Shown piece after piece: positions 18,377 through 55,008 of a stretch of 55,008 bases of DNA. The position numbers and the translations under genes are program-made. Every line of letters begins with the position of its first letter. Positions within the stretch are counted from its first letter, which is position 1. The notes under the pieces are model-generated. The model did no database searches. It saw only the letters and a list, made by a program, of their open reading frames with translations, and was not told where the DNA came from. This DNA comes from a virus, in IMG/VR virus record IMGVR_UViG_3300009149_000040, positions 1 to 55,008 of that record; one strand, given 5' to 3'.

Positions 18377-19741
18377 TTATTTTCCAAGAGGATTCTTAAC
18401 TCCTCCACCTGCAGGTTGATCTGATTTAGTAGTGTCTTGGCTGGCTCTGTTAAGCAGTTCTAGCAACTCAACAGACACATCTTTTTGTGGTTTCCTGGTA
18501 CGGCGATCCTCTACATTTACAGCTGCTTTGTAAGCTTCCGCTAAAGTTAAATTTGAACTCAAAAGTCCCTTTGCGTTCGCTTCCGTATTAACAAGTAAGG
18601 TCTGGTTACAGATGTTCATACCAGCCTCAAGGAACTTTAGCCTACCTCCAGGCTGCTTATCAAAGATATACTGCATCTGATACGGAGCGTTTATACCGGC
18701 AACCATATGACCAGTTTTTTCATCTATTCCGTAGCGTACCTCTCCGCTATACTGCTCATGGGCTGTAAGTTGTCGAACAGCTCTTTCAATACTAGCTTTA
18801 ATAGATACTTTCTTAGGTGACTTACCAGTTGCTTCGTTTTCTATTTCTTTTATAAAATCTGTGTAGGGAACACCTTGTAGAGTTGTTAGGTAATCTATTA
18901 TCTTTTTCGATTGCGCCATATTTATATAACGGTTCTTCTGCAGCGCTTCAATCATCTGTCTAACTTGTGTGATATCTTGCCAATTTTCTATAGGCTTTTT
19001 ACTGTTCTGGTCAACTCGGTTCTCCCATATGTCAACTAATACAGCTTTTACCCAATCACGTACCACTTCTACATCTGCGCTTTCCTTAGGTATTTCAAGC
19101 CTTTTTTCTGCTCGTACGTCTGATAGACCTTTTTGAAGAAAGCTAACTGCGGATAGTAGTTCATCGTAGTGTCTAGTACTCGGTTCAGCCCCAAAGTAGT
19201 GGTCGCAGAAATCAAATATAACCTGAGATACTGCGAACCCTTTTAAGTGATACCCTAGCCCCTTGTCTATGGCATCCTTGAACCCTTCCCAGAAACTTCC
19301 CCCGGAAGACTCTCCCGCTTTTATCACGTAATCAAATATAACAGATGGATTATTAAACGCACCCTTACCTAGTTCTCCATCAGTAACTACAAAAGATAAC
19401 TCTACCCCATCAGAATCTAAAGAAACAAGAGGCTCGTTTTCTTTGTAAGTTACTTTATGCTTGTCTAGAGTCTTACGTGCATCTGCAGCTGCTTTTTCTA
19501 CGAGGTCATTGGCATCTTTAACATGCTCCGCTACAGGTAGTGGAGGCTGCGCAAAAGGGTTAGCTGCATCTTCACTTTGTGGTTCTTGTCCGCGAGTGTT
19601 AAGCTTCTCTTTAAGCTTTTGCTGCTGCTGCTCTATCTGCTTCTGTCTGGACTCAAATTCTTGTACTGTAAAAAGTGGTTTATCAACAGCTATCTTATAG
19701 ATAGCTCCACGAAACCGTATATTAGTTGGAGGATAGCCCAT
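18377..19741 (-). CDS. Tagged head-region protein (N-terminal IRF-G-Y-A motif)
   Basis: 454 aa. ATG 19741 is chosen: it lies four bases after the upstream stop and puts the tag (N-I-R-F-R-G-A-I-Y-K-I-A) at residues 7-18; an in-frame TTG at 19798 would overlap the upstream gene. After the tag comes a Gln/Lys-rich coiled coil (about 20-55), then a long mixed domain with no recognised family. Probably a virion or assembly protein by context. Confidence 0.6.
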   Translation of the reverse strand: MGYPPTNIRFRGAIYKIAVDKPLFTVQEFESRQKQIEQQQQKLKEKLNTRGQEPQSEDAANPFAQPPLPVAEHVKDANDLVEKAAADARKTLDKHKVTYKENEPLVSLDSDGVELSFVVTDGELGKGAFNNPSVIFDYVIKAGESSGGSFWEGFKDAIDKGLGYHLKGFAVSQVIFDFCDHYFGAEPSTRHYDELLSAVSFLQKGLSDVRAEKRLEIPKESADVEVVRDWVKAVLVDIWENRVDQNSKKPIENWQDITQVRQMIEALQKNRYINMAQSKKIIDYLTTLQGVPYTDFIKEIENEATGKSPKKVSIKASIERAVRQLTAHEQYSGEVRYGIDEKTGHMVAGINAPYQMQYIFDKQPGGRLKFLEAGMNICNQTLLVNTEANAKGLLSSNLTLAEAYKAAVNVEDRRTRKPQKDVSVELLELLNRASQDTTKSDQPAGGGVKNPLGK

Positions 19742-19745
19742 GGTG

Positions 19746-21137
19746 CTAGGCGTCTGGATACTCAGTACGGAAGGGACGTTCGGTTCTATACTCGTCAAGG
19801 TGATCCAAGTATAGATCCAAAGTGGATTTCTGGAAGAGACCTATCTCTGCCATGTACACAAACAGATCTACCATCTCCTTTTCGTTTAAAGGATGATTTG
19901 GATCTTTTGAGAACATATCGGCAAAGTCGGTAACACTTAGGTTAAGATGTGACGGTTTACCCATCAACTTCTTCTGCTGTTTCAAAATGTATTCACGATA
20001 AAAAGTAAGAGCTAGTTCTTCTTTCTTTTTATCGCGTTTGAAATCTTCTTCTGCAGCCTCACCTACATCATACATATGTGGTCCACTTTCGTAGGGGAGC
20101 ATATCATCAGGATGAGGAACAAAATCTGGAGTGGGGTAGTTTACATAATCTTTAGGTGGCCAATAGCTTTGTGCTCCTGGTCCCTGTTCAGGCTTATGTT
20201 CAAAAGCTGCGGATTTATCTTTTGTGTTGTTCATAGTTTCATCCGTGCTGTAGAAACGAATTGGTGTCTGCCTTACAGTAGGACGCCAAATGGTATCTGT
20301 AATACTAGATGGGTAGTTTGGGTTCCTTGGTAAGAAGGAATCAGGAAGCACCCTAATAGTATGTAAATCAGGGCTTTCCAAACGAATAGGATCATACACT
20401 GTAGGAGTAGGTATACCTAACTCCGAGTTATCGAATCCAGTATACGTGTAGGATAATGGAATATTAACTACTTTAGTAATATCAGAGTCAGGAAGGTAAA
20501 GAACTACACGGATGTTTCCACCCTCTACTGATCTATCTCCATCTTCGTTCTTTTTTACTACAACGGCGCGTTCACCATTAAGGTCGATACCTTGTAGTTC
20601 TGTAACAACCATTCCAGGCTCTAGGGTCTCTACAGTATCTGCGGTCCTGCTACCAAACTCTGCTGTGATATCTACGTAGTCTACATAAGCATCTCGTTGA
20701 AGAGAGGCGAATTCTTCTTGAACATCCACTAGCATCCTACTATCTTTTGGGATATCTTCAGTCAATGGTGGCCACAGCCTTGCGAATTCTTTACTTATTA
20801 TGGACTCCTTCTCAGAGTCTCCTAGACCCAATTTACACATGCATACTTGTATGCGCTTTGGATCTCCACTTTTAGGATCATCTAATTCTACGATTACAGC
20901 AGGGGGCTCAAGTTCAATTTTATCTCCATACTTCCCAGCATGGATAGCGATATCAACTATTTTTCCAGGACCGAGAGGTGTAGTAACCTCTTGTCCTACT
21001 TCCAGCAATGAAACTACTTCATCGCTAGACACGTCAACGTCTTCTCCTGCGTACTTGTACTCTGCGTTTACAACAGAGTCCTCAGGGGAAAGTTCGTAAA
21101 CGTGAGTTCCAACACGTATGTAAAGAGGACGCGGCAT
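19746..21137 (-). CDS. Tagged structural-region protein
   Basis: 463 aa. The tag (Y-I-R-V-G-T-H-V-Y-E-L-S) is at residues 6-17. A beta-rich region resembling small SH3/KOW-like barrels follows (G-Q-E-V-T-T-P-L-G-P-G-K-I-V-D-I), then a Pro-rich region and a helical C-terminus. Unrecognised. The strong AAGGAAA site supports the start. Confidence 0.6.
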   Translation of the reverse strand: MPRPLYIRVGTHVYELSPEDSVVNAEYKYAGEDVDVSSDEVVSLLEVGQEVTTPLGPGKIVDIAIHAGKYGDKIELEPPAVIVELDDPKSGDPKRIQVCMCKLGLGDSEKESIISKEFARLWPPLTEDIPKDSRMLVDVQEEFASLQRDAYVDYVDITAEFGSRTADTVETLEPGMVVTELQGIDLNGERAVVVKKNEDGDRSVEGGNIRVVLYLPDSDITKVVNIPLSYTYTGFDNSELGIPTPTVYDPIRLESPDLHTIRVLPDSFLPRNPNYPSSITDTIWRPTVRQTPIRFYSTDETMNNTKDKSAAFEHKPEQGPGAQSYWPPKDYVNYPTPDFVPHPDDMLPYESGPHMYDVGEAAEEDFKRDKKKEELALTFYREYILKQQKKLMGKPSHLNLSVTDFADMFSKDPNHPLNEKEMVDLFVYMAEIGLFQKSTLDLYLDHLDEYRTERPFRTEYPDA

Positions 21138-21138
21138 A

Positions 21139-21525
21139 CTATTTCCTTATAGGGCGTAACGCTGCAAGCTCAGCAATAGCGTTTTGATAGTATTTCTCTG
21201 GTCCCTTCCTTGAAAGAACGCGTATTTCTTTAGAGAAATCCGACCTTAACTGTCGTACACTAGAGAGTAACTTCCACAACGACTTCATAATCACATTAGC
21301 GTAAACTGTCTTCAAACTTGTCTTATATGGAATAGGAGATTCCATAACCAGTTGTGCCAGTGCTATTGTGCACGCAAGTACAAAGGCGCGTTTAACAGAT
21401 TCAGATGGAGTAGCAGCTGCGCGTTCCAGCTCCATCGTTAGGTCTTTTATAGACCGTCTGTATTGACGATGGACTACAGGGTTGGTCTGGATAACTTCTT
21501 GTTCTTGCTGGTCAATCTCTGGCAT
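21139..21525 (-). CDS. Hypothetical helical protein
   Basis: 128 aa without the tag. Mostly helical; residues 45-65 are hydrophobic enough for a buried helix or a weak membrane span. The stop abuts the start of the 19746-21137 gene, which follows in the transcript. Unknown. Confidence 0.55.
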   Translation of the reverse strand: MPEIDQQEQEVIQTNPVVHRQYRRSIKDLTMELERAAATPSESVKRAFVLACTIALAQLVMESPIPYKTSLKTVYANVIMKSLWKLLSSVRQLRSDFSKEIRVLSRKGPEKYYQNAIAELAALRPIRK

Positions 21526-21532
21526 TTGGTAT

Positions 21533-21844
21533 CTAGTCTACTAGTAGGTACGTAGCCCCTTTGTATTTAAGATACTTTACAGCTTGGGATCCAGGTTCTT
21601 GTACTATCTCGTAAACAAATCCACTAACTTTAATCCGCTTAGGAGGTTGCGCTTCTCCATGCTTACGCCATTGGATTGCACGTTCTTGCTTCTTAGCTGC
21701 CTCTTCATTTGGGTGTCTACCGAGAAGTCTATGCGGTTTACTATGAGTGTACAAACAAACCTTTTGCTCGGACAAAGGACGATCTGGATCAATATCCTTT
21801 TTTCGGCAGTCTTTGATCACTGCTGTTACCAGTTTTGAGGGCAT
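21533..21844 (-). CDS. Small protein with IDP-EQK-C domain and two C-terminal tags
   Basis: 103 aa. Residues 10-60 form a small domain (D-I-D-P-D-R-P-L-S-E-Q-K-V-C-L-Y, then L-G-R-H-P-N-E-E-A-A) that recurs at the C-terminus of the 28445 protein. Two tag copies follow, R-I-K-V-S-G-F-V-Y-E-I-V and Y-L-K-Y-K-G-A-T-Y-L-L-V, the last ending one residue from the C-terminus. Function unknown. Confidence 0.6.
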   Translation of the reverse strand: MPSKLVTAVIKDCRKKDIDPDRPLSEQKVCLYTHSKPHRLLGRHPNEEAAKKQERAIQWRKHGEAQPPKRIKVSGFVYEIVQEPGSQAVKYLKYKGATYLLVD

Positions 21845-22747
21845 CTATTTAGAGTCCAAAATGTAGTCTACACCTTGAAACTTAATCTTTTTTGGTAGGC
21901 TACTGGACCGTTTTCTAATAGGACGACGAGTTGTGGTTGCACTCTTCCTACGCAGCTCGTTTGTTTTCTTGATGTTTGCTTTATATAGTGTACCACCAAC
22001 AGTGATATACCGTGGGAAACGTACCAGTGTACGTTTGGGATTACCATCTGCAGTCTTAGCGTGTACTTGATCTTGAAGAGCAACATAGTCAGCCGACATA
22101 GCTAGATCTGCAACTTTAGAGCCAAGGTCCTTAAGGTTCATCAACTCTTCAAGAATACTACTTAGCTCCTCTGCTTTACTGGGATCTTTTGAGGATACCT
22201 CTTTTGCTAGTCTATCCCAACCGTGTAACAGTGGAAGAATCCTTCCAAAAACATCCATAAATTCATCTAGCTTAGCTAACGCTTTACCATACGCAGCAGC
22301 TAGTTGTGATCCAATGGAACTGCTATACCGGCTGTATGGATGGTCCATGGGAACTTCATCTTCATAGTCTTCTTCTTCTCTACGTTCTGCTTCCTCTCCA
22401 GGAAGATCACGTCCGTGACCCTCTTCAAAAGGAACTTCTGAAAACTCGCCAACGAACGTACCAAGTATACCAGAGGCATCTTCCCAGAATTTCATAAAGG
22501 TCTTTAGAACTTGATCATCTTCTTTGTCAAGACCCTCTCCAGGAACGTTATCTTGCCTACGTTTCAGCAACTCGTTTGCTGGACCCATCTTAGCCTTATC
22601 AAGAATAGTTATAACTTCAGAAGCGATAGCATGGATATCCCCTGCTACTGCATTGAGCTTTGCTTTGTATTGATCCAAAGAAGTCTCAGCTAAAACATAG
22701 ATGTTTCCTCCAACACGAATAACAGGAGGTTGTGCTGTATCTTTCAT
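21845..22747 (-). CDS. Triple-tagged helical protein
   Basis: 300 aa with three tag copies: N-terminal (V-I-R-V-G-G-N-I-Y-V-L-A, residues 9-20), near residue 245 (Y-I-T-V-G-G-T-L-Y-K-A-N) and at the extreme C-terminus (K-I-K-F-Q-G-V-D-Y-I-L). Between the first two is a helical domain with an acidic linker. Between the last two is an Arg/Ser-rich segment. The record number of tags in one chain makes it a good test case. Confidence 0.65.
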   Translation of the reverse strand: MKDTAQPPVIRVGGNIYVLAETSLDQYKAKLNAVAGDIHAIASEVITILDKAKMGPANELLKRRQDNVPGEGLDKEDDQVLKTFMKFWEDASGILGTFVGEFSEVPFEEGHGRDLPGEEAERREEEDYEDEVPMDHPYSRYSSSIGSQLAAAYGKALAKLDEFMDVFGRILPLLHGWDRLAKEVSSKDPSKAEELSSILEELMNLKDLGSKVADLAMSADYVALQDQVHAKTADGNPKRTLVRFPRYITVGGTLYKANIKKTNELRRKSATTTRRPIRKRSSSLPKKIKFQGVDYILDSK

Positions 22748-22770
22748 ACCAGTGCTCCGTTCAAAATAGG

Positions 22771-23115
22771 TTACGACTTCAACAGGCGAAGTTCATCTTT
22801 TGCTGCTGAGTTGACCGTTCTAGAAAGTCTTTCAATCTCTTCTAGCACACTTATCCAAGGGTCAATCTCCCCTTTGCTATAAGCGTCTTTTAGTTTTTCG
22901 GCCTGATCGGATAGTTGTAACATATACTTACGGATTATGTACAACGAAGGTTTATCTCCCGCGTTAAGTTGTGAGAACTGTGTAATATCTTCTGCGTCGT
23001 CTTCTGCACGGTGCATAGACTTCAACCTAGTTCCACCAGCAGTAGGAGCCTCTGTTTCTACAAGCTCGTAAAGAACATCCCCAACACGGATCCTCTTAGC
23101 AGGAGTTTTGTACAT
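22771..23115 (-). CDS. Small tagged helical protein
   Basis: 114 aa. Tag R-I-R-V-G-D-V-L-Y-E-L-V at residues 8-19, then an all-helical body. The start overlaps the previous stop (TAATG) with GGGAG upstream. Unknown function. Confidence 0.6.
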   Translation of the reverse strand: MYKTPAKRIRVGDVLYELVETEAPTAGGTRLKSMHRAEDDAEDITQFSQLNAGDKPSLYIIRKYMLQLSDQAEKLKDAYSKGEIDPWISVLEEIERLSRTVNSAAKDELRLLKS

Positions 23116-23681
23116 TACTTTTCTCCCTCAGATCTTTCCCAAATTTTTGGTAAAAACCCTCCACGTTGCAACCACTCGTCTAATCCCAAAAAGTATCCTG
23201 CCATCTCTACGGCGGCGTCACTTTCGTTTTCGTCATCCACAATAGAGTTAGCAAGCTCTTGTACTTTACGTAGAGCTACTTCAGGATCCATTGCTAGCTT
23301 GTAGATATGGTTCCCTACTTTTATCATTTTTGGAGGTTTAGTACTCATGGAAGCTTCTTTCTTACTAGCGTTAGCGTCCCAAAACTTGTCTGCGTTTTGC
23401 AGAGCAAGCTCCATTCTTCTACGCCCTACTGGATTAGCAGAGTGTACATTCCAAACTATACGAGGTACGGTTCCATCGAAAGCCTGACGTTCAATCCATA
23501 CTGCGACATCGTATCCAGTACCAACGTCTATACCTACATCAGATCCTTCCCCCAAATCATGATCCAGTGATACTTCGGATACTTTTCCAGATTTAAGAAG
23601 TCGGATAGCATCTTGTGCGGTTTTGACATGAACGTCAAATCCTGGGGGTGCAGGCCGAATGTCATCTAGCCATAAACGCAT
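23115..23681 (-). CDS. Cyclic-phosphate-processing receiver-like domain fused to a tagged tail
   Basis: 188 aa. ATG 23681 has a GCGGGGAT site upstream; the longer frame overlaps the previous gene. Residues 1-95 match the cREC family: R-L-W-L-D-D-I-R-P-A-P-P-G, S-L-D-H-D-L-G, G-T-G-Y-D-V and V-H-S-A-N-P-V-G-R. That family is a receiver-fold domain predicted to process cyclic-phosphate RNA ends in repair systems. Residues 120-130 carry the tag (I-K-V-G-N-H-I-Y-K-L-A), directly after an internal Met112, followed by a small helical segment. The fusion resembles two genes joined in frame. Confidence 0.75.
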   Translation of the reverse strand: MRLWLDDIRPAPPGFDVHVKTAQDAIRLLKSGKVSEVSLDHDLGEGSDVGIDVGTGYDVAVWIERQAFDGTVPRIVWNVHSANPVGRRRMELALQNADKFWDANASKKEASMSTKPPKMIKVGNHIYKLAMDPEVALRKVQELANSIVDDENESDAAVEMAGYFLGLDEWLQRGGFLPKIWERSEGEK

Positions 23682-23694
23682 AATGTATCCCCGC

Positions 23695-24246
23695 TTAAAC
23701 TTCCTCTTCTTCATCCTTTTTCTTAAGGCGCTCTCTAGCTATTTCTAGATTAGTTTCCTCACGAAAAGACTTCTCAAGTTCATCATCAGTAGTAACAGGA
23801 CGGAAATCCTTCGCACCGATTTTCTGTTTTTCTACATTCGCGTTGAATAACTTCTGGTCAAGAAGACCGTACTTAACAGCAATGTCAGCAGCAGCTGACA
23901 TATACTGATGTACCACTTCAACGTTTCCTAAAGCTATAGCAAGCTGCTCATTAAAAGTTGCTATCCGATCCCAAAGTTCTTCTTTGGTAAGAAGACCCTC
24001 TTCCTTAAGATCAAGGACATCACGGATACCAGTTTTCCTGAAATAAGCTAGCCCCAACGCACGTTCAATATCGCCTACAAGACCAACTGACTCATCAAGA
24101 GCAGTCAACAATGGCTTGAAACGACGAGAAGTGTATTCTTTAACGGCTTTTGACAGGTAGATACTATTAGGATCTACGTCGGCACGTACGTAATCTGCAC
24201 CACGAAATCGGATCCTGTAAGGAACCTTCTTTTTCGTCTGGGCCAT
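23695..24246 (-). CDS. Tagged helical protein
   Basis: 183 aa. Tag R-I-R-F-R-G-A-D-Y-V-R-A at residues 11-22, then a helical body (possible four-helix bundle) with a highly charged C-terminus. Good GGAGAG ribosome site. No family recognised. Confidence 0.6.
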   Translation of the reverse strand: MAQTKKKVPYRIRFRGADYVRADVDPNSIYLSKAVKEYTSRRFKPLLTALDESVGLVGDIERALGLAYFRKTGIRDVLDLKEEGLLTKEELWDRIATFNEQLAIALGNVEVVHQYMSAAADIAVKYGLLDQKLFNANVEKQKIGAKDFRPVTTDDELEKSFREETNLEIARERLKKKDEEEEV

Positions 24247-24258
24247 AACGCTCTCCAG

Positions 24259-24477
24259 TTACACAGCTTTAATTAGGCCAGTGAGTTCTTCAATATGCTC
24301 AAGGGCGTCTCTTTTTAAACTGGCTTTCACGCCACCCTCTAAATCTTTTTTACCGAGTTGCTTAACAGCGATATTCAATGATATCATCTCATTTTGGATA
24401 GCTATACCATGAGCTGCCAACTTATAGATTACCCCACCAACACGAATAACTTGAGGGGGTGTGTTCTTCTTTGTCAT
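24259..24477 (-). CDS. Internal in-frame start: separate 72-aa tagged product
   Basis: Nested in the 3' end of the kinase gene, same frame. ATG 24477 is preceded by AAGGAG at ideal spacing. The product would start with a tag at residue 10 exactly as the free-standing tagged proteins do, and would be a small helical protein. Confidence 0.5.
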   Translation of the reverse strand: MTKKNTPPQVIRVGGVIYKLAAHGIAIQNEMISLNIAVKQLGKKDLEGGVKASLKRDALEHIEELTGLIKAV

Positions 24478-25071
24478 CTTTAAGGTCTCCTTACTAACTG
24501 AGGATTGTTTTTTAGGTGTCCACACTGGACGTTCTGAACGAAGAATTTTCATAGGATCGAGGTCGAATTCCCAACGTTTGAGCATGTTCTTAATGCCTTC
24601 AACAGGGACTCCATGTACAGTCTTACTTACAAGAGTTTCTGCCAACTCTTGCAACTCTTCTTCCGACATATTGGGCTTAAAGTTATTCCACCAAGGAGAT
24701 TCAGGTTCTACAATCTCTACGTCGTAACCTTCTGTCATACCGATTACTACGTAAGGCTTGGCTTCCCAACCTTGTGTAGTTGTGTTATCAACTACAATTG
24801 GTGTGATCCCCTTATGTGCAGCATCCCATACGCGCTTCTGATTCCACTTATGTGCTTCTTGTAGCTTGGTAGGATTGAAGTTGTACTCCTCCCCTTCCAT
24901 GAAGAAGTCATCTGTGGAAAATACTTTACCAGATCCAGCTAACTGCTTAGCCTTTGTGGACTTACCGGATCCAGATACTCCACGCATGATATACATCTTC
25001 TTAGGAGCATCCGCTAAACGGTAAACTTGTCCTTTAACCTTGATATACTTTGGTAGAGATTTAGTAGTCAT
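24259..25071 (-). CDS. P-loop polynucleotide-kinase-like enzyme, double-tagged
   Basis: 270 aa. Tag at residues 9-20 (Y-I-K-V-K-G-Q-V-Y-R-L-A), then a P-loop kinase: Walker A G-V-S-G-S-G-K-S-T (31-39), F-S-T-D-D (51-55) and V-V-D-N-T-T (93-98). This is the pattern of N4BP2/AAA_33-type polynucleotide kinases, which phosphorylate 5'-OH nucleic-acid ends. After a linker a second tag occurs (V-I-R-V-G-G-V-I-Y-K-L-A) eleven residues beyond an in-frame ATG (24477) with an AAGGAG site nine bases upstream. A separate 72-residue C-terminal product is therefore likely. RNA-end repair is inferred from the neighbours. Confidence 0.75.
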   Translation of the reverse strand: MTTKSLPKYIKVKGQVYRLADAPKKMYIMRGVSGSGKSTKAKQLAGSGKVFSTDDFFMEGEEYNFNPTKLQEAHKWNQKRVWDAAHKGITPIVVDNTTTQGWEAKPYVVIGMTEGYDVEIVEPESPWWNNFKPNMSEEELQELAETLVSKTVHGVPVEGIKNMLKRWEFDLDPMKILRSERPVWTPKKQSSVSKETLKMTKKNTPPQVIRVGGVIYKLAAHGIAIQNEMISLNIAVKQLGKKDLEGGVKASLKRDALEHIEELTGLIKAV

Positions 25072-25073
25072 GG

Positions 25074-26099
25074 TTAACGCCTAGGACTGATAATATCAAG
25101 TTCTTTTAAGAAAAGGCTAACAGCGTTGCCTTGACTTACACCAACAGAATCTAGGTTTTGTTTTTGTACTTCCTTAATAGCATCCAAAATACTAGAAAGA
25201 GACGTCGACTTACCTAAAAATACCTCACGTACGAATTTTTCACCACTAGGCCCGGCTCTAAGTGCTTCTAGTACTGTGTGTATTAGTTCACTGGGTGCGA
25301 TATCTTTTCCACGAACAGCAGGATCTTTTCTGGGATACGGCTTGCCATCCTCAGCGTAACCTATGTCCGGAAACTCTAAACCAGTATCTTCATCTAGATT
25401 ATAGCCCGCTGCACGTCTGTACAGATGGCCTTTAACCTTGATATACTTTGGTTTTACAGAAGCACCATAGTAAAGAGGCTCTTCCGGTTCGTCTTCCTTG
25501 GGCCTAAATTCTTCAGGTTCCTCTTTAGAAATAAACTGTAGAAACTCAACAAGATTTTTAAATGATTCTACAGCATATTCTACCTTGCCAGCAATCTGGC
25601 TGGGTAGATCGTGGATAGGTAGCTCATCTTTAATCTCGTTTGCACGGACTACCTCGTGTTTCAGATCCGCTAGTACATTATGTACTAGTTCTTGTACCAC
25701 TCTTTTATCTTCTGGATTAATTGCGGGGTACTCATCCAGTGATAGATTACCTGCTGCAACGCCCCTCTGCTGTCGGAGTATTGGAGGTGTAACAGAGACA
25801 GGACGCTTAGCGTCCTGGCGACCAGGCCGTTCTTTTCCTACAGCGTTTTTAAGCTCTACCCAAGAACGGTGTGCAGCTTCCCATAAACTACGAAGCATAC
25901 TTTCTAATTCTGTTGGAAGGTTATTTCCTATATTTTGTACGGCATCAGCAACAAAGTTTAGAGTGTCCCCTATTTCTCTAGAAGCATACCATAGTTCGTA
26001 AATAAACTTATCTTTATCTTTGAGGTAGTCTTCTTTACGATCTGCAATTTTATAAACACGTCCATTGACCTTGATGCGTGCAGGAAGATTTCCCATCAT
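25074..26099 (-). CDS. Double-tagged helical protein
   Basis: 341 aa. Tag 1 is N-terminal (R-I-K-V-N-G-R-V-Y-K-I-A, residues 8-19). A helical domain with a Pro/Arg linker follows. Tag 2 (Y-I-K-V-K-G-H-L-Y-R-R-A-A) is near residue 220 after an acidic linker and without an internal Met, so this repeat is not explained by a second start. GGAG precedes the start (ATG 26099 or 26096). Directly downstream of the capsid gene terminator; function unknown. Confidence 0.6.
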   Translation of the reverse strand: MMGNLPARIKVNGRVYKIADRKEDYLKDKDKFIYELWYASREIGDTLNFVADAVQNIGNNLPTELESMLRSLWEAAHRSWVELKNAVGKERPGRQDAKRPVSVTPPILRQQRGVAAGNLSLDEYPAINPEDKRVVQELVHNVLADLKHEVVRANEIKDELPIHDLPSQIAGKVEYAVESFKNLVEFLQFISKEEPEEFRPKEDEPEEPLYYGASVKPKYIKVKGHLYRRAAGYNLDEDTGLEFPDIGYAEDGKPYPRKDPAVRGKDIAPSELIHTVLEALRAGPSGEKFVREVFLGKSTSLSSILDAIKEVQKQNLDSVGVSQGNAVSLFLKELDIISPRR

Positions 26100-26224: not shown

Positions 26225-27367
26225 CTAGGAGAGTCGAATACCCTTGGAAACGCCACGGGAGTTGGCAATCACCGTTGCTTGACGCAAGAAGATGAACCAA
26301 CCGCGAGCGGCGCGGCCCAGCATGCGCTGGTCGACCACACTGGAGTTCAGTGCGATCATGTTTGCTTTGACACCCAGGGTTGCAGGGGAGGAGAGGAAAT
26401 AAACCTCTCCAGGCTGCAGAACCTGCAACGTGTCATAGCGGAATCCGTCAGTCACCAACTCGATGTCGGCTAGACGGCCCAGCTTACCCTCTACTGCCAA
26501 TTCATGCTTCTCGATTGGAGAGTACCACTTGCTCCACTCGTCGTTGGAGAAGAGGTCATCCCACAGGTCGATTGCAAGAAGGCAATGAGGGACCGGGAGG
26601 CTCCACTGCCAAACCTGGTTACGCAAGGTAACCAGAACGTTTGGAGTGAACGCGTTGAATGCGATAACATCATTGCTGGTCGCGGCAGCTTGATCCAAGA
26701 GGAACTTGGTGATGTTATCATCACGAACCATGGTGGACTCCAGAGCATCGTTGTATTTCTCTTCGATGATCTGTGCACCAGCTTCGTGAATCTCGTCTTC
26801 GCCCATCATCACGAGGGTCTCAATGTTGTAACCCTTGGGATAGATGTATTTTTGGCGAATCAAAGACTCAACTGTGTGGCCATCAGACAGCATCAACCAA
26901 GAAGTAACGTCCTTCTGGCGAATGCGGACACGAGCGGTTCCACCTTCGGCAACATCCTGCTGAGCAAGGATCTTGTTGGTGAAGCCCATGCGTCCCATGG
27001 TCTCAGAAATGCTGTCGGTGAAGACTTCACCAAGAACCTGGAAAGGACCGGAAGCTGTAGGAGACTTCTCTGCGAGAGCCGCCTGCACCAAGTGTCCCTC
27101 CTGGTTCCAACTGGCAACGTCGTCCATCGGGAATCCGCCTGGATCCTGATGAATTTCACCAGCGCGAGCAAGCTTAACCAGACCGTCAACGATCTCCATC
27201 AGGTCACGCTTGCTAGCAGCATTATACTCACCACCAGCACCAACTAGGTTGGTATTGGCGGAATGAACTACACTCCCCGTACGGGGGTTCGCCTTGAATG
27301 CACGCCCATTAGCGATGTCATTCCCTTGACGATCCCGGAGAGAAGCTTTTTTGAATACCTTAGACAT
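26225..27367 (-). CDS. Major capsid protein (probable)
   Basis: 380 aa from ATG 27367, with AGGAG eight bases upstream; the longer frame adds six residues. Evidence is positional and compositional: it lies downstream of terminase, portal, scaffold and protease, has clearly GC-richer codons than its neighbours, a strong ribosome site and its own terminator. The helical N-terminus and mixed E/G-rich, beta-containing body fit an HK97-type capsid subunit, including I-Q-A-A-type helices after a possible pro-region. No tag is present. Sequence identity to a named capsid family was not established. Confidence 0.7.
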   Translation of the reverse strand: MSKVFKKASLRDRQGNDIANGRAFKANPRTGSVVHSANTNLVGAGGEYNAASKRDLMEIVDGLVKLARAGEIHQDPGGFPMDDVASWNQEGHLVQAALAEKSPTASGPFQVLGEVFTDSISETMGRMGFTNKILAQQDVAEGGTARVRIRQKDVTSWLMLSDGHTVESLIRQKYIYPKGYNIETLVMMGEDEIHEAGAQIIEEKYNDALESTMVRDDNITKFLLDQAAATSNDVIAFNAFTPNVLVTLRNQVWQWSLPVPHCLLAIDLWDDLFSNDEWSKWYSPIEKHELAVEGKLGRLADIELVTDGFRYDTLQVLQPGEVYFLSSPATLGVKANMIALNSSVVDQRMLGRAARGWFIFLRQATVIANSRGVSKGIRLS

Positions 27368-27393
27368 ATCAAATTCTCCTTTCACGTTAAGGG

Positions 27394-28444: not shown

Positions 28445-29512
28445 CTATTTGTTGCTTGGCTTGTCTTTTCTGTTTTTACCAGAACCTTGCCAATAACGAT
28501 TGATCATCATTACTTTGTGTTGAAGAGCTTTTTTCTTAGTAGGAAACCTGCCCCTAAGCCTGCCTTTACCGCCGCCCTTCTTGCTCTCGTACACACAATA
28601 CTTCTGTTCTGTGATGTCTTTTTTAGGATCTATATCCTTCTCACGACAGATATCTACACCATCCATATTTTCTGGAAGGTCATAGGCCAGTACTTCTTTT
28701 ACAGCAGAGTCTACAGGAGTGTATACTACTCCAGCAAACACTACATGTCCTTCTACTTTAGAAGACAATTCCAACTCCTGTAGGTGACTGTGTAACAAGT
28801 TTATTAAGTCTGTTACTGCACCAAGGTTGCTACCCCTTCCAGAAGGACCGTATAAATAAAGTTTTGAAACTTCCGGATGAGAGGTATAGTTTTGAATAGC
28901 TAGCTGTATATCTTTATTTTCAATGCCACAACGAGTTAACCCGTCGTAAGCATGCTCCATTAAAATAAGGTTTCTCTCTCCACCAAATTCAATGTCTACT
29001 CTTCGCAGGTCATGAAGAGCGTCTCTAATACATCGTACAGAAGAGGTGTTTTCATTCTGTGTATAGGCAGATTTTTCTTTACGGTAATGATCTTTTAACT
29101 TTTCCACTTCTTCTGGATCTGCGTAGAACATCAGACCAAACTGCCTACCATTCCATCCAACAGTGTAAGAGCCGCCTAGTTTGGTCAGTTTGCTTGCACG
29201 GTTTAAAGGACCAGTAACTGAAGAAGAAAGTACAGAAGTTATCTTGTCAAAAACATCATCTACTTTTTTGTACTTATCTTTCAGCTTACTCAGATCACCA
29301 ACGTCATCTTGTAACTCAAACCTTTTAACTAAACTAGTTGCCGCCTCAAAAGTAGGTGCAGTTGCCCAACGACGTAGAAAAAGAGTAACTCCTCCTTGGC
29401 TATCCAAGACACGACTTTTTTTACGGCTTGTTCTAGATTCAAAACGTTTAAACACTTCTTCAACAGCATGGTCGAAGTCCTGTACATCTGGAACTAGATC
29501 AGGAAGTGGCAT
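28445..29512 (-). CDS. Head-region protein with C-terminal IDP-EQK-C domain
   Basis: 355 aa. ATG 29512 follows the upstream stop by four bases with TAGGTAG before it. The N-terminal 300 residues are unrecognised. The C-terminal 60 contain C-R-E-K-D-I-D-P-K-K-D-I-T-E-Q-K-Y-C-V-Y followed by L-R-G-R-F-P-T-K-K-K-A, the same small domain as in the 21533 protein. A degenerate tag-like stretch (V-V-F-A-G-V-V-Y-T) precedes it. Confidence 0.55.
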   Translation of the reverse strand: MPLPDLVPDVQDFDHAVEEVFKRFESRTSRKKSRVLDSQGGVTLFLRRWATAPTFEAATSLVKRFELQDDVGDLSKLKDKYKKVDDVFDKITSVLSSSVTGPLNRASKLTKLGGSYTVGWNGRQFGLMFYADPEEVEKLKDHYRKEKSAYTQNENTSSVRCIRDALHDLRRVDIEFGGERNLILMEHAYDGLTRCGIENKDIQLAIQNYTSHPEVSKLYLYGPSGRGSNLGAVTDLINLLHSHLQELELSSKVEGHVVFAGVVYTPVDSAVKEVLAYDLPENMDGVDICREKDIDPKKDITEQKYCVYESKKGGGKGRLRGRFPTKKKALQHKVMMINRYWQGSGKNRKDKPSNK

Positions 29513-29516
29513 TGTG

Positions 29517-30056
29517 CTACCTAGAAGAGAATCCAATAGCTTTAATCAAACGTGAAGAATAAATAACGCTTGGACTTTTAGACCCTTTTTGCCTATCGAT
29601 GTAATCCAAAGCTTTTTGTTTTTGCCTATCGATGTAATCCAAAGCTTTTTGTACGGAATCAACAGCACCAGTAGGATTTTTATCCCTCCAGTGCCATCCA
29701 ACCTGCGATACAGAGTAGTACCAAAGCTCTCCCTTTTCCTTAGCTTTCTCAGCTTCAACTTTTTGTGCAGGAGTTAACTTTGAATCGATATCCTCAGGGA
29801 TTGAACGACCTACCTTTTTAGATCCTGCAGGCAACTCTTCCCCTGTTCTACTCTTGGTAAGAATGACTATATCAAATTCAACAGCGTCACCCTTGTAAAA
29901 CTGATCATCAAAACGGTCATCCGCTTTAATCGCAGGAGCGCCCTTATTAGGACGCTTACCACGGCGTTTCTTCTTCCTAGCTGCAGTGATTTCTTCAGCT
30001 GCGGCCAGACGGTAGCGTTCTCCGTTAACTTTGATGAATTTTGGTAGACTTGTCAT
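29517..30056 (-). CDS. Internal in-frame start: separate 179-aa tagged product
   Basis: The GGAGGAG ribosome site before ATG 30056 is among the strongest in the window, and the protein start matches independent tagged genes. Translation from this site therefore seems likely in addition to, or instead of, the longer fusion. Confidence 0.6.
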   Translation of the reverse strand: MTSLPKFIKVNGERYRLAAAEEITAARKKKRRGKRPNKGAPAIKADDRFDDQFYKGDAVEFDIVILTKSRTGEELPAGSKKVGRSIPEDIDSKLTPAQKVEAEKAKEKGELWYYSVSQVGWHWRDKNPTGAVDSVQKALDYIDRQKQKALDYIDRQKGSKSPSVIYSSRLIKAIGFSSR

Positions 30057-31753: not shown

Positions 31754-32605
31754 CTACTCTTTTGAGGTATCTTCTTTAATATCCCCACCAGTTTCACGTA
31801 CTTCTTCTAGGTGGGATCTAAGTTTTTCACCAAGACTACTAGAACCTGTAACAAGAGGACCTGATTTGTATTCTTCGTATACTTTACGCCAAGTATTATA
31901 TACTAAATCATCTAGCATGGCCGTTACAGGACGAACTTCCCTTACACCATTAAATGCGAAAACTCCTCCCAAGCATCCACCAGAAGGAGCACGCTTCAAA
32001 GAGATGTCTACACTGTTTAAATGTGGGTATTCTATTAAGATAATATCTGTAAGTTTTCCTACAAACTCGTGCGCTACTTCATCAGGAACGTCATACTTCC
32101 AACCAATAACATCAAAGTTAGGTGGATAGCAGAATCCTCCACGAACAGTATCAACACTTTCTCTTAGTTTCTCATCTCTAATAGACAAAACAGCTGCAGA
32201 TCTTCTGCCAGTGTACAGCATAGGTTTGTACGAAGAGGTACGTTCAGGTAATGCTTTAGGAGACCATATCTGCCGTGCCTGCTCAGTTGAGATTTTAGGT
32301 ATGCCCGCAGCACGTAAAAGCTCTAAGAAGAACTTCTTTGCGTCTTCTTTCGTTAGCTCTAAAACGTTATCTCCGGATTTACCAGAAAACTTGGCAAAGA
32401 AACTTCCATATATTGGATCAAGGTATAGTGCACGAGTTTCTTCTGGATAGTCTACTGAGATAAGAAGTTCACCTTCTAGAGGGTTCCCTTCTTCAGACAA
32501 TAAAGTTAAATCATGCCCTTTTCGTATACGTGGCTTTATCTCTGCTAGTCTATACTTACAACCATTGTACGTTATATACCTAGGTGGTGTTTTGTTAGAA
32601 GTCAT
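31754..32605 (-). CDS. Tagged head-region protein
   Basis: 283 aa. Tag Y-I-T-Y-N-G-C-K-Y-R-L-A at residues 9-20 and an AAGGAG ribosome site. The body is mixed alpha/beta with no recognised family. It lies just downstream of the protease gene in the transcript. Confidence 0.6.
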   Translation of the reverse strand: MTSNKTPPRYITYNGCKYRLAEIKPRIRKGHDLTLLSEEGNPLEGELLISVDYPEETRALYLDPIYGSFFAKFSGKSGDNVLELTKEDAKKFFLELLRAAGIPKISTEQARQIWSPKALPERTSSYKPMLYTGRRSAAVLSIRDEKLRESVDTVRGGFCYPPNFDVIGWKYDVPDEVAHEFVGKLTDIILIEYPHLNSVDISLKRAPSGGCLGGVFAFNGVREVRPVTAMLDDLVYNTWRKVYEEYKSGPLVTGSSSLGEKLRSHLEEVRETGGDIKEDTSKE

Positions 32606-33427: not shown

Positions 33428-33466
33428 GGATAAAATCCCTGTGCAGCGAGTTGGTAATAAGAAATT

Positions 33467-33501
33467 AATGTGTGGGGGAGGTATTCCCTCCCCCACACAT
33501 T
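33467..33501 (-). terminator. Rho-independent terminator after the scaffold gene
   Basis: A perfect 15-base-pair stem (33467-33481 with 33487-33501), five-base loop, then an AT-rich tail on the minus strand (ATTTCTTATT). Lies between the scaffold stop and the protease start, so it likely lets scaffold be made in excess over protease. Confidence 0.8.
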
Positions 33502-35463: not shown

Positions 35464-35688
35464 TTAGCGAATGCCAATCTGTTGTGCGTAAAACCTAATC
35501 TTTTCCCAAAGATCTATACCTATTTGCTGTTTTTCATATGAAGAAATTTTATCAGAATTTGCAGTATCAGATAATCTCTTTACAAGTGCTCCAAATTCCT
35601 TCCACATTACAGCTTCTTGTGGCGCAGAATGGGCACGTCGGTAGGTGTGTCCTTTATATAATAACTTATTCGGTGTATTCTTTGGCAT
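35464..35688 (-). CDS. Small tagged protein (74 aa)
   Basis: ATG 35688 is preferred; the longer frame overlaps the upstream gene. Tag L-L-Y-K-G-H-T-Y-R-R-A at residues 8-18, then a helical body. Unknown function. Followed by a 75-base gap before the scaffold gene, with no clear signal. Confidence 0.55.
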   Translation of the reverse strand: MPKNTPNKLLYKGHTYRRAHSAPQEAVMWKEFGALVKRLSDTANSDKISSYEKQQIGIDLWEKIRFYAQQIGIR

Positions 35689-35705
35689 ATTTAGTAACAA
35701 CTTTT

Positions 35706-45943: not shown

Positions 45944-47086
45944 TTATGAAACATCTGTATCGTCATCGATATGCCGATAGAATTTACGATACAGTCTCAT
46001 TACAATTCTACGTTGACGTGCACCAGTTTGCACATAACGATTCTTTTCCAAGATAAAGCTAAATAGTTTAAATATTGTGTCAAGTGCATGACCGTATCCA
46101 CCAGAATGGATAACAATTAAATCGGTTAGTGCATTCAAGCGTTCCCATAAGAACCTTGAAGAGGCTTCTCCCGCCATCTTGTAAAGATGCTCCCCAACCC
46201 TAATAACCTTAGGAGGAGAATCCTCTTTAGAACTTCCAACAACGTTGAACACTGGAGCCTTTTCTCTATCTTTTACCATTCTAGCATCTCGTAACTTTCT
46301 AGATAGGTCTTCCAGCTCAAATAACAGGTCAGCATAACGAAACTTGTTCAGTATAGACTTTATAATAGGTACAGGAAGTTTTTCCTCTTCCATATACTCT
46401 GCCAAAAAGAAATCGTTAGGGTCCTCTTCCAACTGCTCGTCGAAAATTGAGGCTTCCTTCCATACTTCTTTCTTATTATATGCTTTTACAACATTACGTA
46501 CATTTTTTCTAAGATCGAGCACATGCTTACGAAGCTCGAATAGGATACCTTCCCTATCTTCTTCCTCTATCTCCGAAAAAGCAGTTTTAAGTATAGTCCA
46601 TTTATACGGAAATAACTCTGTAGACCATTTAGCTTTATAGAGCTGCCAACGAGCGCACTGTAAGATAGCTTCAGGTCGTGCCATCTCTGTTATATCTGTT
46701 ACACGGCGTCCATGCCAAACACCTGTAGTAACATTATAAATAGTGCCAAACCTACTAGCTAGTGCGTCTGGACTAACACTTTCTGGAACCAAATAAAAAC
46801 GAACTGGATGATTGGTGTTAGAAAGGAAATACCCAGAAACAATCTGGGTATCTTTTCTGTATTCTTCCATATCTGCATCAGCAGTATGAATAAGTACATC
46901 AAGATCTGACTGTTCATCATAGTAATGACCAACCAAGGCACCGACTAAATACACTGCTTTTGCGTTAGGAAACCTACGTGATATTTGGTGCTGAAGCTGA
47001 AGACGCGCAGCTGGAGCAAGATTCATCTCATCTGAGTTCCAGATGTCTCGATCCATCAAGCGTCTATGATAATCTAGTATATGCAT
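45944..47086 (-). CDS. Nucleotidyltransferase-fold protein with internal tag
   Basis: 380 aa. Residues 45-66 read Y-L-V-G-A-L-V-G-H-Y-Y-D-E-Q-S-D-L-D-V-L, the G-[AS]...D-x-D signature of pol-beta-type nucleotidyltransferases (Asp61, Asp63). A helical region follows. The tag (V-I-R-V-G-E-H-L-Y-K-M-A, residues 294-305) precedes a C-terminal helical domain. It could add nucleotides to RNA ends or modify host molecules. The presence of the tag suggests it travels with the other tagged enzymes. Confidence 0.7.
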   Translation of the reverse strand: MHILDYHRRLMDRDIWNSDEMNLAPAARLQLQHQISRRFPNAKAVYLVGALVGHYYDEQSDLDVLIHTADADMEEYRKDTQIVSGYFLSNTNHPVRFYLVPESVSPDALASRFGTIYNVTTGVWHGRRVTDITEMARPEAILQCARWQLYKAKWSTELFPYKWTILKTAFSEIEEEDREGILFELRKHVLDLRKNVRNVVKAYNKKEVWKEASIFDEQLEEDPNDFFLAEYMEEEKLPVPIIKSILNKFRYADLLFELEDLSRKLRDARMVKDREKAPVFNVVGSSKEDSPPKVIRVGEHLYKMAGEASSRFLWERLNALTDLIVIHSGGYGHALDTIFKLFSFILEKNRYVQTGARQRRIVMRLYRKFYRHIDDDTDVS

Positions 47087-47087
47087 G

Positions 47088-48086
47088 TTATCGTTGCCTA
47101 GTATACCGGTAACCTTTGTACTCTATAACATCTGCTACAACACTAGACACTTTTTTTGCCTTTGGTCCGCCAGGAACTGTAGCATTAGCATCCTCATCAA
47201 TTGCGTTAGTAGGAGAATCGTCTCTAACCTGCTTTTTAGTAGGAAGCTCTTGCGTCTCAACATCATCACGCTTAGAAGGAGTTGAAACTGGGGTGTCATC
47301 TACTTTTTTCAGTTTACCTTCTTGTTTCAATTTAATCAACTGCTGTGCATTGGCTGAAACCGCATCCTCCATTGCTCCTTGTAACACATCATAGATAGTC
47401 CCATTCCAATTACGAAGAGCGTGTTCACCAATAGATTTAGCTACTAAGGTGGGGGTTTCACTGAATATAATCATAAGGTCAGTGAGTTCTAATTCGTTGA
47501 AATCAGGACTATACTTCTGTATTAAACTACTTATAGGAGTATTTGGATCTTTTTGTAGAAGTGGTTGAAGCAGTTTGATGTACCCAATTGTTTCTCTAAG
47601 TAGTCTGTCCCCTTTATAAGGAAGGTCTACGTCAGAAAGAACTGCGGCTTCTTTAGCGGTATAAAAGGGCATTACGCCAAGAAACTTATACCAATTTGCT
47701 GTAACAGATGCGGCTTTACTTGGAGAGCGTTCTTGCTTCCACCACCTCTCGGCTTCTGTCATCAGAATTTTGTCAACAGCTGCACTGATTATGTTCATAA
47801 GGGACAAATTTTCTGATATTTGTCCCTTATTATCAAAAATCTCATTTATATGTGAGTATCCGATAGATGGATTATGTAGAAGTAACCGATGTATAAGATC
47901 TAAATCAGCGTAGTCAAACCTAAATGAGGTAAGCTCTTCGCGTATATCTTTTGCTGGATCTTTAGCATTCGCAGGAATATCAGAAACACGTGTCTTGATG
48001 AACTTCTCAATTAGCTTACGTAGATCACCACTGTAACTAAGTGACTTTCCTCTACCAGATTCTTTAATTCGAGTACTAACAGCCAT
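47088..48086 (-). CDS. Helical protein with C-terminal tag
   Basis: 332 aa from ATG 48086 (AGGA upstream); a longer frame crosses the hairpin and is rejected. Helical body, Pro/Thr/Asp-rich linker (about 255-310), then the tag as the final residues (V-I-E-Y-K-G-Y-R-Y-T-R-Q-R). Stop is one base from the next start. Unknown function. Confidence 0.6.
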   Translation of the reverse strand: MAVSTRIKESGRGKSLSYSGDLRKLIEKFIKTRVSDIPANAKDPAKDIREELTSFRFDYADLDLIHRLLLHNPSIGYSHINEIFDNKGQISENLSLMNIISAAVDKILMTEAERWWKQERSPSKAASVTANWYKFLGVMPFYTAKEAAVLSDVDLPYKGDRLLRETIGYIKLLQPLLQKDPNTPISSLIQKYSPDFNELELTDLMIIFSETPTLVAKSIGEHALRNWNGTIYDVLQGAMEDAVSANAQQLIKLKQEGKLKKVDDTPVSTPSKRDDVETQELPTKKQVRDDSPTNAIDEDANATVPGGPKAKKVSSVVADVIEYKGYRYTRQR

Positions 48087-48115
48087 GTTACAGAATCCTA
48101 AAACAAAGTGTATGA

Positions 48116-48152
48116 GTACAGGGTGGTATAGGTTATCTGTACCACCCTGTAC
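48116..48152 (-). other. Intergenic 13-bp hairpin
   Basis: GTACAGGGTGGTA (48116-48128) and its complement (48140-48152) form a perfect stem with an 11-base loop just after the 48198-48626 gene. No U-run follows on the minus strand. Probably an mRNA stability or weak termination element. Confidence 0.5.
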
Positions 48153-48197
48153 CATACACAGGATTTACGCTGTATCCCAGGTGTCTACAGTAGACTA

Positions 48198-53134: not shown

Positions 53135-53467
53135 CTAAGATGGTAACAGTTTGTATACACTTCCTTTATACTCAATATAAGTAGCTGGTGCCACACTGGC
53201 CTCTTTCTCTTTTACAGTTTCCTTAGCTTCTTTTTCCATTGTTGCCAGGCGGTCATAATAATCTGCAAATTCGTTTAGATGTGCTAGAGCGATCTTTGCG
53301 GTCGTGACAGGGTCATCATCGGTGACGTTGGTATCTTTGCTACGGGTACCATGCTCAAGCTCAACGTCCATACCCTTAGCTAGATCGGAGGAAGAGAACT
53401 TCAATTTGTCCCAATCCAACCCTAGTTCTTCTGCTACTGCTTCGGCGTCTTTTTTAGAAAATCCCAT
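53135..53467 (-). CDS. DUF5661-like protein with C-terminal tag
   Basis: 110 aa. Residues 1-85 match the DUF5661 pattern: F-S-K-K-D-A, G-M-D-V-E-L-E-H-G, V-T-D-D-D-P and K-I-A-L-A-H-L-N-E-F-A-D-Y-Y. These are found in phages and bacteria, function unknown. After a short linker the tag ends the protein (Y-I-E-Y-K-G-S-V-Y-K-L-L). First gene behind the promoter near 53513-53541. Confidence 0.7.
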   Translation of the reverse strand: MGFSKKDAEAVAEELGLDWDKLKFSSSDLAKGMDVELEHGTRSKDTNVTDDDPVTTAKIALAHLNEFADYYDRLATMEKEAKETVKEKEASVAPATYIEYKGSVYKLLPS

Positions 53468-53541: not shown

Positions 53542-53572
53542 CTTGGTTGTAGACCAAACTACTTGTAGAATA

Positions 53573-53647: not shown

Positions 53648-53652
53648 ATAAT

Positions 53653-53725
53653 GCCCTCGCTGAGATTTGAACTCAGAAATCACGGCTCTGAACCGTGCAC
53701 CTTTAGCCAGTTAGGTCACGAGGGC
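53653..53725 (-). tRNA. tRNA-Leu(CAG), class I shape
   Basis: Acceptor GCCCTCG/CGAGGGC, seven perfect pairs; T arm CTGAG-TTCAAAT-CTCAG; anticodon arm CACGG-TTCAGAG-CCGTG (CAG). Variable region four bases, again without the long leucine arm. Ends five bases from the other tRNA. No CCA encoded. Confidence 0.8.
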
Positions 53726-53795
53726 CTGATGAATCCAGTAGATGACACAAAATATTTATCTGTCAAGAAGAAGCTAAGCTTAGTTACTATATTAC

Positions 53796-54434
53796 ATGAA
53801 AACACGAACAATAAAATACAATGGTAGTTTGTATACTCGGGTAGCATATACTAACGAAGATTTGTTAACCTATGAGCAAATACGTATGAGAGGGGCAGTA
53901 GAAATAGGTGACGCCTATGGTCCAGATAATAAATGGAACCCAGGATGGGCAGACATAGATGGCAAAAAATTTGCTCATGTAGACGCTTTAGATGAAAGTA
54001 TGCGGCCAATACAGCAATTTCTTCGAGTGGACAATTTAGAAGGGTGGAGATGGGAATGGATGGAAGGGCACACACAAGAAGATGTAATCGAGATGTTCGA
54101 AAGTTATAACGAAGCTAAGCGTAGGCAGAAAAATGGTAGTACATATACGCTTGCAGAAGATACCAGTAATACTAATCTCGTTGTCAAATATATAATACGT
54201 GAATCTGGATGGATGCACGATCTCCTAGAAGAAGCTAAAAGTCAAAACAGCCGCTTCAGGGACATACTAAAAGAAGTAGTAACAGAAGATCTCTTGAGGA
54301 AGGTTCCAAAAGTTAGCGGAGCTGCTGAAGAACTGATGAACAGATCTTTGAAAGACCTGTTAAAGTATGTTAATTGGAATGTGGTGGCCAAAAGAGCAAA
54401 AGCAATAGCAGAAGAAGATTACGGGATGGTCTGA
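53796..54434 (+). CDS. Tagged protein on the plus strand
   Basis: 212 aa. Tag (T-I-K-Y-N-G-S-L-Y-T-R-V) at residues 4-15 of an otherwise unrecognised mixed protein with a helical C-terminus. It is the only tagged gene on the plus strand, divergent from the tRNAs and convergent with the next gene, which shows that the tag is not tied to one operon. Confidence 0.6.
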   Translation: MKTRTIKYNGSLYTRVAYTNEDLLTYEQIRMRGAVEIGDAYGPDNKWNPGWADIDGKKFAHVDALDESMRPIQQFLRVDNLEGWRWEWMEGHTQEDVIEMFESYNEAKRRQKNGSTYTLAEDTSNTNLVVKYIIRESGWMHDLLEEAKSQNSRFRDILKEVVTEDLLRKVPKVSGAAEELMNRSLKDLLKYVNWNVVAKRAKAIAEEDYGMV

Positions 54435-54436
54435 GA

Positions 54437-55008
54437 TTAGATCACAGGTCCCCTTCCAACACCCGGCTCTACCGCCTGCCAAAACCCCGCAAACCTAACT
54501 GGTATCGTTTCCATTTCAAGCTCTTTCGCAATCCAGAGACGATGGTTCCCTTCTCCCAGCTTGGCGACACCGTTTTTGCCAAAGATCATCAAAGCGGGCT
54601 CATCCTCATCCCACCCCCACACCTTCATACTTTTACTAAGCTCCGCCCATTGTTCGTCTGTCTTCATACTATCCTTATCAGGAACACGATCATACTCACG
54701 GTACTTCCAAACTTCTTCAAGTGGATACTCAACCGTAAAAGAGCCCCACCGATCAGGACGTTCATCGTCAAGTGCCCATTTCTTAGCCACTTCTTCGATG
54801 GAGAGAGGGTTCTCAGTATCGAAATCGTAGTGGTCGTAGAAAGCACGTACGTACAGTTGGCCTCTATGTTTAACGTATTTTCCATACATCTTAGGCACGC
54901 TTGCATAGGTTAACTGATCAAACGTAGAAATGCGTTCAACATTAGCAGCTTTCTCAGAAGCAATCCCTTTAATGTAATCTACGTAGTACTGATAAAAACG
55001 CTGTTTTA
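54437..55008 (-). CDS. ParB/sulfiredoxin-like protein with internal tag, 5' end outside window
   Basis: The frame is open to the window edge, so only the C-terminal 190 residues are seen. The tag Y-V-K-H-R-G-Q-L-Y-V-R-A lies inside, about 45 residues from the edge. It is followed by an acidic linker and a domain with L-G-E-G-N-H-R-L-W-I-A-K-E-L, the G-x-x-R motif region of ParB/sulfiredoxin-fold proteins (nucleotide-binding). Starts within the window (GTG 54898, ATG 54889) are possible but less likely. Confidence 0.6.
   Translation of the reverse strand, partial: KQRFYQYYVDYIKGIASEKAANVERISTFDQLTYASVPKMYGKYVKHRGQLYVRAFYDHYDFDTENPLSIEEVAKKWALDDERPDRWGSFTVEYPLEEVWKYREYDRVPDKDSMKTDEQWAELSKSMKVWGWDEDEPALMIFGKNGVAKLGEGNHRLWIAKELEMETIPVRFAGFWQAVEPGVGRGPVI

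Follow-up and report, generated by a model that had tools for sequence, protein, structure and literature searches.

A short basic peptide tag on unrelated proteins of an uncultured PaBG-type jumbo phage clade: a candidate docking tag for head assembly

To characterize a peptide that recurs across otherwise unrelated phage proteins, we analyzed a 55,008-base virus record from IMG/VR (IMGVR_UViG_3300009149_000040; "the window" refers to this whole stretch) together with its relatives. The peptide, hereafter the tag, is 12 residues long and occurs 23 times in 18 window proteins. Comparisons of homologs indicate that it is an add-on module, gained and lost cleanly at the N-terminus, linker or C-terminus of the proteins that bear it, and that selection acts on the peptide at the protein level. 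On balance we judge it slightly on the probable side that the tag is a short, basic mini beta-hairpin used for docking, by which one or two common partner proteins in the assembling head capture accessory proteins.

The tag was located with a profile built from the window alone, seeded with 11 regular-expression matches and scanned over all window open reading frames (ORFs). The first profile returned 22 segments scoring above a level that shuffled proteomes attain about 0.15 times each; with one borderline C-terminal copy (PKKIKFQGVDYILD) the total comes to 23 copies in 18 proteins, exactly the count of the original prediction and at the places it had named. Two profile matches, in 16783-18114, were left out because they do not show the invariant G/P pattern. 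The scan also agrees that TerL, the portal, scaffold and protease proteins, the major capsid protein (MCP) and the entire left arm of the window carry zero tags. The copies are as follows.

19688-19723, minus strand: NIRFRGAIYKIA, N-terminal (start 19741), gene 18377-19798
21087-21122, minus strand: YIRVGTHVYELS, in a 29-residue N-terminal extension of gene 19746-21137 that five homologs do not have
21539-21574, minus strand: YLKYKGATYLLV, C-terminal, 1 residue from the end, gene 21533-21844
21602-21637, minus strand: RIKVSGFVYEIV, penultimate copy, gene 21533-21844
21854-21889, minus strand: KIKFQGVDYILD, C-terminal copy, gene 21845-22747; score borderline, pattern fits
21974-22009, minus strand: YITVGGTLYKAN, C-terminal region, gene 21845-22747
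22688-22723, minus strand: VIRVGGNIYVLA, N-terminal, gene 21845-22747
23059-23094, minus strand: RIRVGDVLYELV, N-terminal, gene 22771-23115
23292-23327, minus strand: MIKVGNHIYKLA, between cREC and a small C-terminal domain, gene 23115-23714
24181-24216, minus strand: RIRFRGADYVRA, N-terminal, gene 23695-24246
24415-24450, minus strand: VIRVGGVIYKLA, head of nested ORF 24259-24477
25012-25047, minus strand: YIKVKGQVYRLA, N-terminal, directly before a P-loop kinase domain (Pfam AAA_33), gene 24259-25071
25410-25445, minus strand: YIKVKGHLYRRA, internal, gene 25074-26099
26043-26078, minus strand: RIKVNGRVYKIA, N-terminal, gene 25074-26099
30003-30038, minus strand: FIKVNGERYRLA, head of nested ORF 29517-30056
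32543-32578, minus strand: YITYNGCKYRLA, N-terminal, gene 31754-32605
35632-35667, minus strand: KLLYKGHTYRRA, N-terminal, gene 35464-35730
36534-36569, minus strand: SVLYKGRVYVAA, N-terminal, gene 36168-36581
46172-46207, minus strand: VIRVGEHLYKMA, in the hypervariable, predicted-disordered linker of nucleotidyltransferase 45944-47086
47094-47129, minus strand: VIEYKGYRYTRQ, last residues, gene 47088-48155
53144-53179, minus strand: YIEYKGSVYKLL, C-terminal, gene 53135-53467
53808-53843, plus strand: TIKYNGSLYTRV, N-terminal, gene 53796-54434
54842-54877, minus strand: YVKHRGQLYVRA, N-terminal, ParB-like gene 54437-54898

The relatives are 14 IMG/VR contigs with an MCP at least 76% identical to that of the window, the largest being G010 (349,793 bp). 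A motif scan across related phages had been proposed as a check, and the window-only profile finds the tag in all 14. As an independent test, the unchanged profile was run at a threshold of 13 bits: G010 gives 38 matches vs 0.4 in shuffles, and G001, G006 and G008 give 29, 19 and 16, each vs 0.1. The clade total is 147 tagged ORFs in about 65 protein clusters, a count that takes in the near-duplicate contigs G007 and G009, which are dropped from later counts; one genome holds 27 tagged ORFs, and tandem arrays reach 2-4 copies per protein. When 13-mers common to different proteins were sought without supervision, the tag motif emerged as the most connected peptide of the window (6 other proteins) and again as the top peptide in two relatives (14 other proteins each), and the motif tops this list in clade members only.

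The consensus, with frequencies drawn from 170 distinct copies, is [AP]-P-x-x-[IVL]-[KR]-[VYF]-[KNG]-G-x-x-Y-x-[LR]-[AV]. Proline stands at -1 in 72% of copies, I/V/L at position 2 in 96%, Y/V/F at 4 in 96%, G6 in 95% and Y9 in 98%; position 3 is K/R, 11 is L/R and 12 is A/V, followed by E/A/D. The mean net charge is +2.1, with basic positions 3, 5 and 10, and these features together with the conserved aromatic Y9 are what might be expected of a nucleic-acid-binding hairpin that holds proteins on phage DNA or RNA. We consider that role quite improbable, as the strongest constraint falls on hydrophobic and aromatic positions (I2, Y/V4, Y9) and on P-1 rather than on basic residues, and as the copies form two discrete subclasses that suit a protein partner. 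In the V class (YIRV[NG]GHLYRLA), V4 pairs with I2, N/G5 and R/K10; in the Y/F class (TIKYKGATYVLA), Y/F4 pairs with K5, A7 and V10. All 14 C-terminal copies listed are of the Y/F class. No V-class tag occurs among 40 copies in G001 and L003, vs 14 among 34 in the window plus G011 (p=3e-6), a lineage drift that suggests a subclass-specific partner; no such partner was found.

Several lines of comparison show the tag to be separable from the proteins that carry it. In nucleotidyltransferase 45944-47086 it lies in the hypervariable linker, and four of the six aligned homologs do not have it, while the terminal tag of gene 47088-48155 is present in the window and G011 only. An AlphaFold2 model of the nucleotidyltransferase leaves the linker tag disordered (pLDDT ~29), and in that of 31754-32605 the N-terminal tag is an isolated hairpin outside the fold (strands 10-13 and 16-19; pLDDT ~40). 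Both models come from shallow alignments and their low confidence is suggestive only, but they suggest that the tag is placed outside folded domains. Folded domains commonly contain short beta-hairpins of this kind, and the tag could be a conserved structural part of a single ordinary domain family; we see a very slim chance of this, given its presence or absence among homologs, its predicted disorder or detachment, and the failure to find a domain common to the tag-bearing proteins. The original prediction had named such an element as its own refutation, and this does not hold up; its description of the hosts as otherwise unrelated stands. Fold searches matched the nucleotidyltransferase model weakly to NTase-fold proteins (best E 0.009) and returned no match for the 31754-32605 model, and a solved-structure search with the kinase-like protein 24259-25071 likewise gave none.

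The codons of the invariant G6 and Y9 follow genome background usage, and over 94 homologous pairs the rate of nonsynonymous difference (pN) is lower within tags (0.24) than in the flanking linkers (0.35) or the remainder (0.30), synonymous sites being close to saturated throughout. Background codons and low pN within the tag speak against both a mobile DNA element and an RNA signal. A selfish, in-frame, peptide-coding mobile element of the Rickettsia palindromic element type would account for many in-frame copies in unrelated genes and for gain and loss between relatives. We regard it as extremely improbable, because the copies share no common DNA and sit at termini with matched start signals, where they have been kept over long divergence.

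The original prediction had placed the tag at N-termini, at C-termini and between domains. The terminal copies stand, whereas several of the between-domain copies prove to be N-termini of nested or fused genes. An ATG lies at most 12 codons upstream in 35 of the 89 internal ("domain-junction") copies, and mean Shine-Dalgarno (SD) pairing at these tag-linked internal ATGs is -5.5 kcal/mol vs -2.3 at other internal ATGs (p=9e-9) and -4.1 at called gene starts; pairing of -6 or better is found at 54% of them vs 9% of controls. Two nested ORFs in the window illustrate the arrangement.

29517-30056, minus strand: nested in-frame ORF of 179 residues, SD GGAGGAG, ATG at 30056 (sequence GGAGGAGATTAGATATG)
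24259-24477, minus strand: nested in-frame, tag-headed ORF, SD AAGGAG upstream of the ATG at 24477 (sequence AAGGAGACCTTAAAGATG)

In G001 and L003 the homologs of ORF 29517-30056 are free-standing genes that start at the same point. Many internal copies are therefore predicted to be N-termini of nested or fused genes, or fossil N-termini, and the signals at 29517-30056, 24259-24477 and their relatives suggest a long and a short product from each gene. In gene 23115-23714, tag MIKVGNHIYKLA has an upstream internal methionine with a weak SD and probably reflects a fusion. The family of gene 28445-29536, a universal head gene, keeps an internal tag without a methionine in G006 and G010, so that the tag probably functions inside the long form too. 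This family is tagged at least in G006, G010, G001 and G008, and its window member has no profile match. The window protein carries HVVFAGVVYTPV near the position of the relatives' full tag, which is probably a decayed copy.

Gene order is kept among relatives from the terminase to beyond the MCP, and the tagged genes have a characteristic position within it, as shown by the following window features.

21139-26099, minus strand: hypervariable "cargo slot" between the MCP and gene 19746-21137, 7 of 8 genes tagged
26225-27385, minus strand: MCP, untagged
32615-33496, minus strand: head maturation protease, untagged
33513-35387, minus strand: acidic scaffold-like protein, untagged, a possible partner of the basic tag

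The contents of this slot differ in each phage, and 33 of its 38 same-strand genes in five contigs are tagged (antisense ORFs and one ORF overlapping the MCP were excluded by eye). In all five contigs tagged genes are over-represented within 10.5 kb of the MCP (p 0.03 to 2e-6). In the window and the relatives compared, no tag is carried by the terminase, portal, scaffold-like protein, protease, MCP-adjacent structural protein or MCP. We infer encapsidation because the hypervariable slot, short common tag, adjacency to head genes and cargo domains match the T4-type pattern. The earlier proposal of a docking or encapsidation signal is borne out as regards an add-on module under selection near the MCP; the head as its destination is argued by analogy.

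According to the favored docking reading, the tag sits on unrelated proteins either at one of the two free ends or within a flexible linker, and internal copies, often behind a ribosome-binding site and ATG, would give long and short tag-headed products. While the head is being assembled, the tags may then bind one or two common partners, for which the scaffold-like protein 33513-35387 and the inner capsid surface are possible candidates. The payload would be packed with the genome and delivered at infection, here including an RNA/nucleotide kinase, a cREC cyclic-phosphate enzyme and a nucleotidyltransferase. cREC and PNK have been proposed as counter-defense/RNA-repair enzymes (PMC7824862), and cREC and polynucleotide-kinase-like domains are plausible injected cargo. 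More tentatively, and possible rather than probable, the two subclasses may be read by two different partners and form a genome-wide address code that directs dozens of proteins to the head, some of them in both a long and a short (nested-start) form, with the slot serving as an interchangeable payload cassette.

Several observations weigh against a head destination. The tag does not look like a known targeting signal, and its tandem and C-terminal copies set it apart from that of T4. Not all tagged genes adjoin head genes: G010 has a second tagged cluster at 174-181 kb, on both strands and beside replication genes, and the G001 type IB topoisomerase (L035:16191-17705) is tagged at its N-terminus. 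Many tagged proteins have no recognizable function. The tag might instead dock proteins to a hub outside the head, either a replication/transcription complex or a phage-made condensate of multivalent tagged proteins. A multivalent scaffold would be well served by 2-4 tandem copies per protein, the second G010 cluster lies near SbcCD/clamp-loader-like genes (as read from sequence), and ParB-like proteins are tagged as well as topoisomerase IB. We nevertheless hold such a hub to be rather unlikely, since enrichment is strongest around and just after the MCP in five contigs and no homolog of the phiKZ nuclear shell was found in three clade contigs (the phiKZ control worked; a divergent shell could escape a sequence search). 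Import into a phage nucleus is disfavored on the same absence of a phiKZ-type shell homolog.

The original prediction had also offered a prohead-protease cleavage site. Glutamate is enriched 3.2-fold directly behind the tag, L-x-E occurs in 22 of the 96 copies with L/I at position 11 (6.3 expected), and a conserved A-L-A-E lies ahead of the MCP core. These 22 copies are, however, only ~13% of about 170, and L-x-E is weakly enriched over the next 30 residues (85 vs 63). The pattern is broken by an R that is often found at position 11, and positions 11-13 vary, so that the scissile residues are not conserved; C-terminal copies lie 0-9 residues from the chain end, where a cut frees nothing. The weak downstream enrichment and the C-terminal copies lacking a downstream product led us to reject L-x-E cleavage as the general role, and a protease site is improbable as an explanation of the tag. 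In the docking reading, the head protease may trim the tag at its L-x-E end in a minority of copies. In the MCP, A-L-A-E occupies residues 103-106 (A-L-N-E in L009) and may be a T4-type maturation site. Within the 20 residues that precede internal and C-terminal tags, the dipeptide AS is enriched (30 observed vs 12.4 expected, SD 3.2), often as "xAS..P", and is possibly a second element or protease site.

The T4 capsid-targeting sequence (CTS) offers the closest functional parallel. T-even internal proteins are diverse and have only this sequence as a common element (PMC3012670). As in T4, a short peptide is found on diverse proteins, in association with head genes and on plausibly anti-defense cargo (PMC3012670). 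The T4 comparison made in the original prediction holds to this extent and does not extend to sequence: the tag is unrelated to the CTS, and its profile finds no T4 copy above chance, with 0 copies above 13 bits in the T4 and P1 genomes. Many copies of the tag are N-terminal or lie at internal starts, but others, unlike the CTS, are internal, tandem or C-terminal (at least 14 copies). The tag also ends in L-x-E in only 22 copies and falls into two subclasses. The best reading is that it would work like the CTS despite the unrelated sequence. In P1, an N-terminal peptide of more than 9 and at most 30 residues sends DarB into the capsid, the 30 N-terminal residues being enough to package a reporter (PMC9024508), and the window tag may act similarly; unlike for the tag, no consensus is reported among the Dar proteins (PMC9024508). 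The jumbo phages SPN3US and phiKZ likewise load many ejection proteins into a head with a prohead protease (PMC10052503); their propeptides are mostly long (111-254 residues) and cleaved, whereas the tag has 12 residues, no clear cut site and a PaBG-type lineage. A further possible parallel lies in the encapsulins, whose short cargo-loading peptides, placed at a terminus, anchor cargo to a shell of the HK97 fold; encapsulins are bacterial compartments rather than phage heads.

The host lineage can be placed from conserved head genes. The window MCP is ~30% and TerL ~29% identical to those of PaBG, Motura, BcepSauron and others, with NCTB among the matches, and homologs of the portal and protease were matched in PaBG and NCTB. 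By the homology of all four proteins, the host is an uncultured PaBG-type jumbo phage. No tag excess was found in 64 outgroup MCP loci, in the nearest outgroup (37% MCP identity) over its whole 210 kb, or in the whole of PaBG, and the MCP regions of seven isolated phages contain no tag. The whole of NCTB has four scattered segments above 13 bits vs 0.9 expected; these sit inside conserved proteins, such as the MCP and tail sheath, and none is in a P-x-tag context at a terminus. As far as searched, the tag thus appears to be a derived trait of one uncultured PaBG-type clade. In the shared-peptide scan, a different 13-mer of NCTB, LFLFDGTPPTSADD (for example in 151650-152786), links to as many as ten other proteins; a strict pattern search gave only two.

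We report as new the internal-start copies, the tagged hypervariable slot behind the MCP and the V and Y/F subclasses. If the tag is an encapsidation signal, the payload proteins of an uncultured jumbo-phage clade would be readable directly from sequence, which is not so in most phages, where signals have no recognizable consensus. It would single out, among hundreds of unknown genes, those likely to be delivered at infection, provide a testable rule for the gain of payload (a tag joined at either end or in a linker), and offer a short peptide with which large capsids could be loaded with proteins. The internal copies also illustrate that what looks like a domain-junction motif can be the start of a nested gene.

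Each phage has exactly one untagged same-strand gene in the slot, close to its far end (21139-21525 in the window; at 70122 in G001, 290580 in G010, 25643 in G008 and 30808 in G006), which could encode a chaperone or partner of the tag. The G010 homolog of the topoisomerase IB, at 220491, carries a weaker tag copy. A DUF5661 domain stands beside tags in two relatives: it is fused to cREC in the G001 slot gene L002:12204-13469 and occurs without cREC in G006 (L007:13362-14411).

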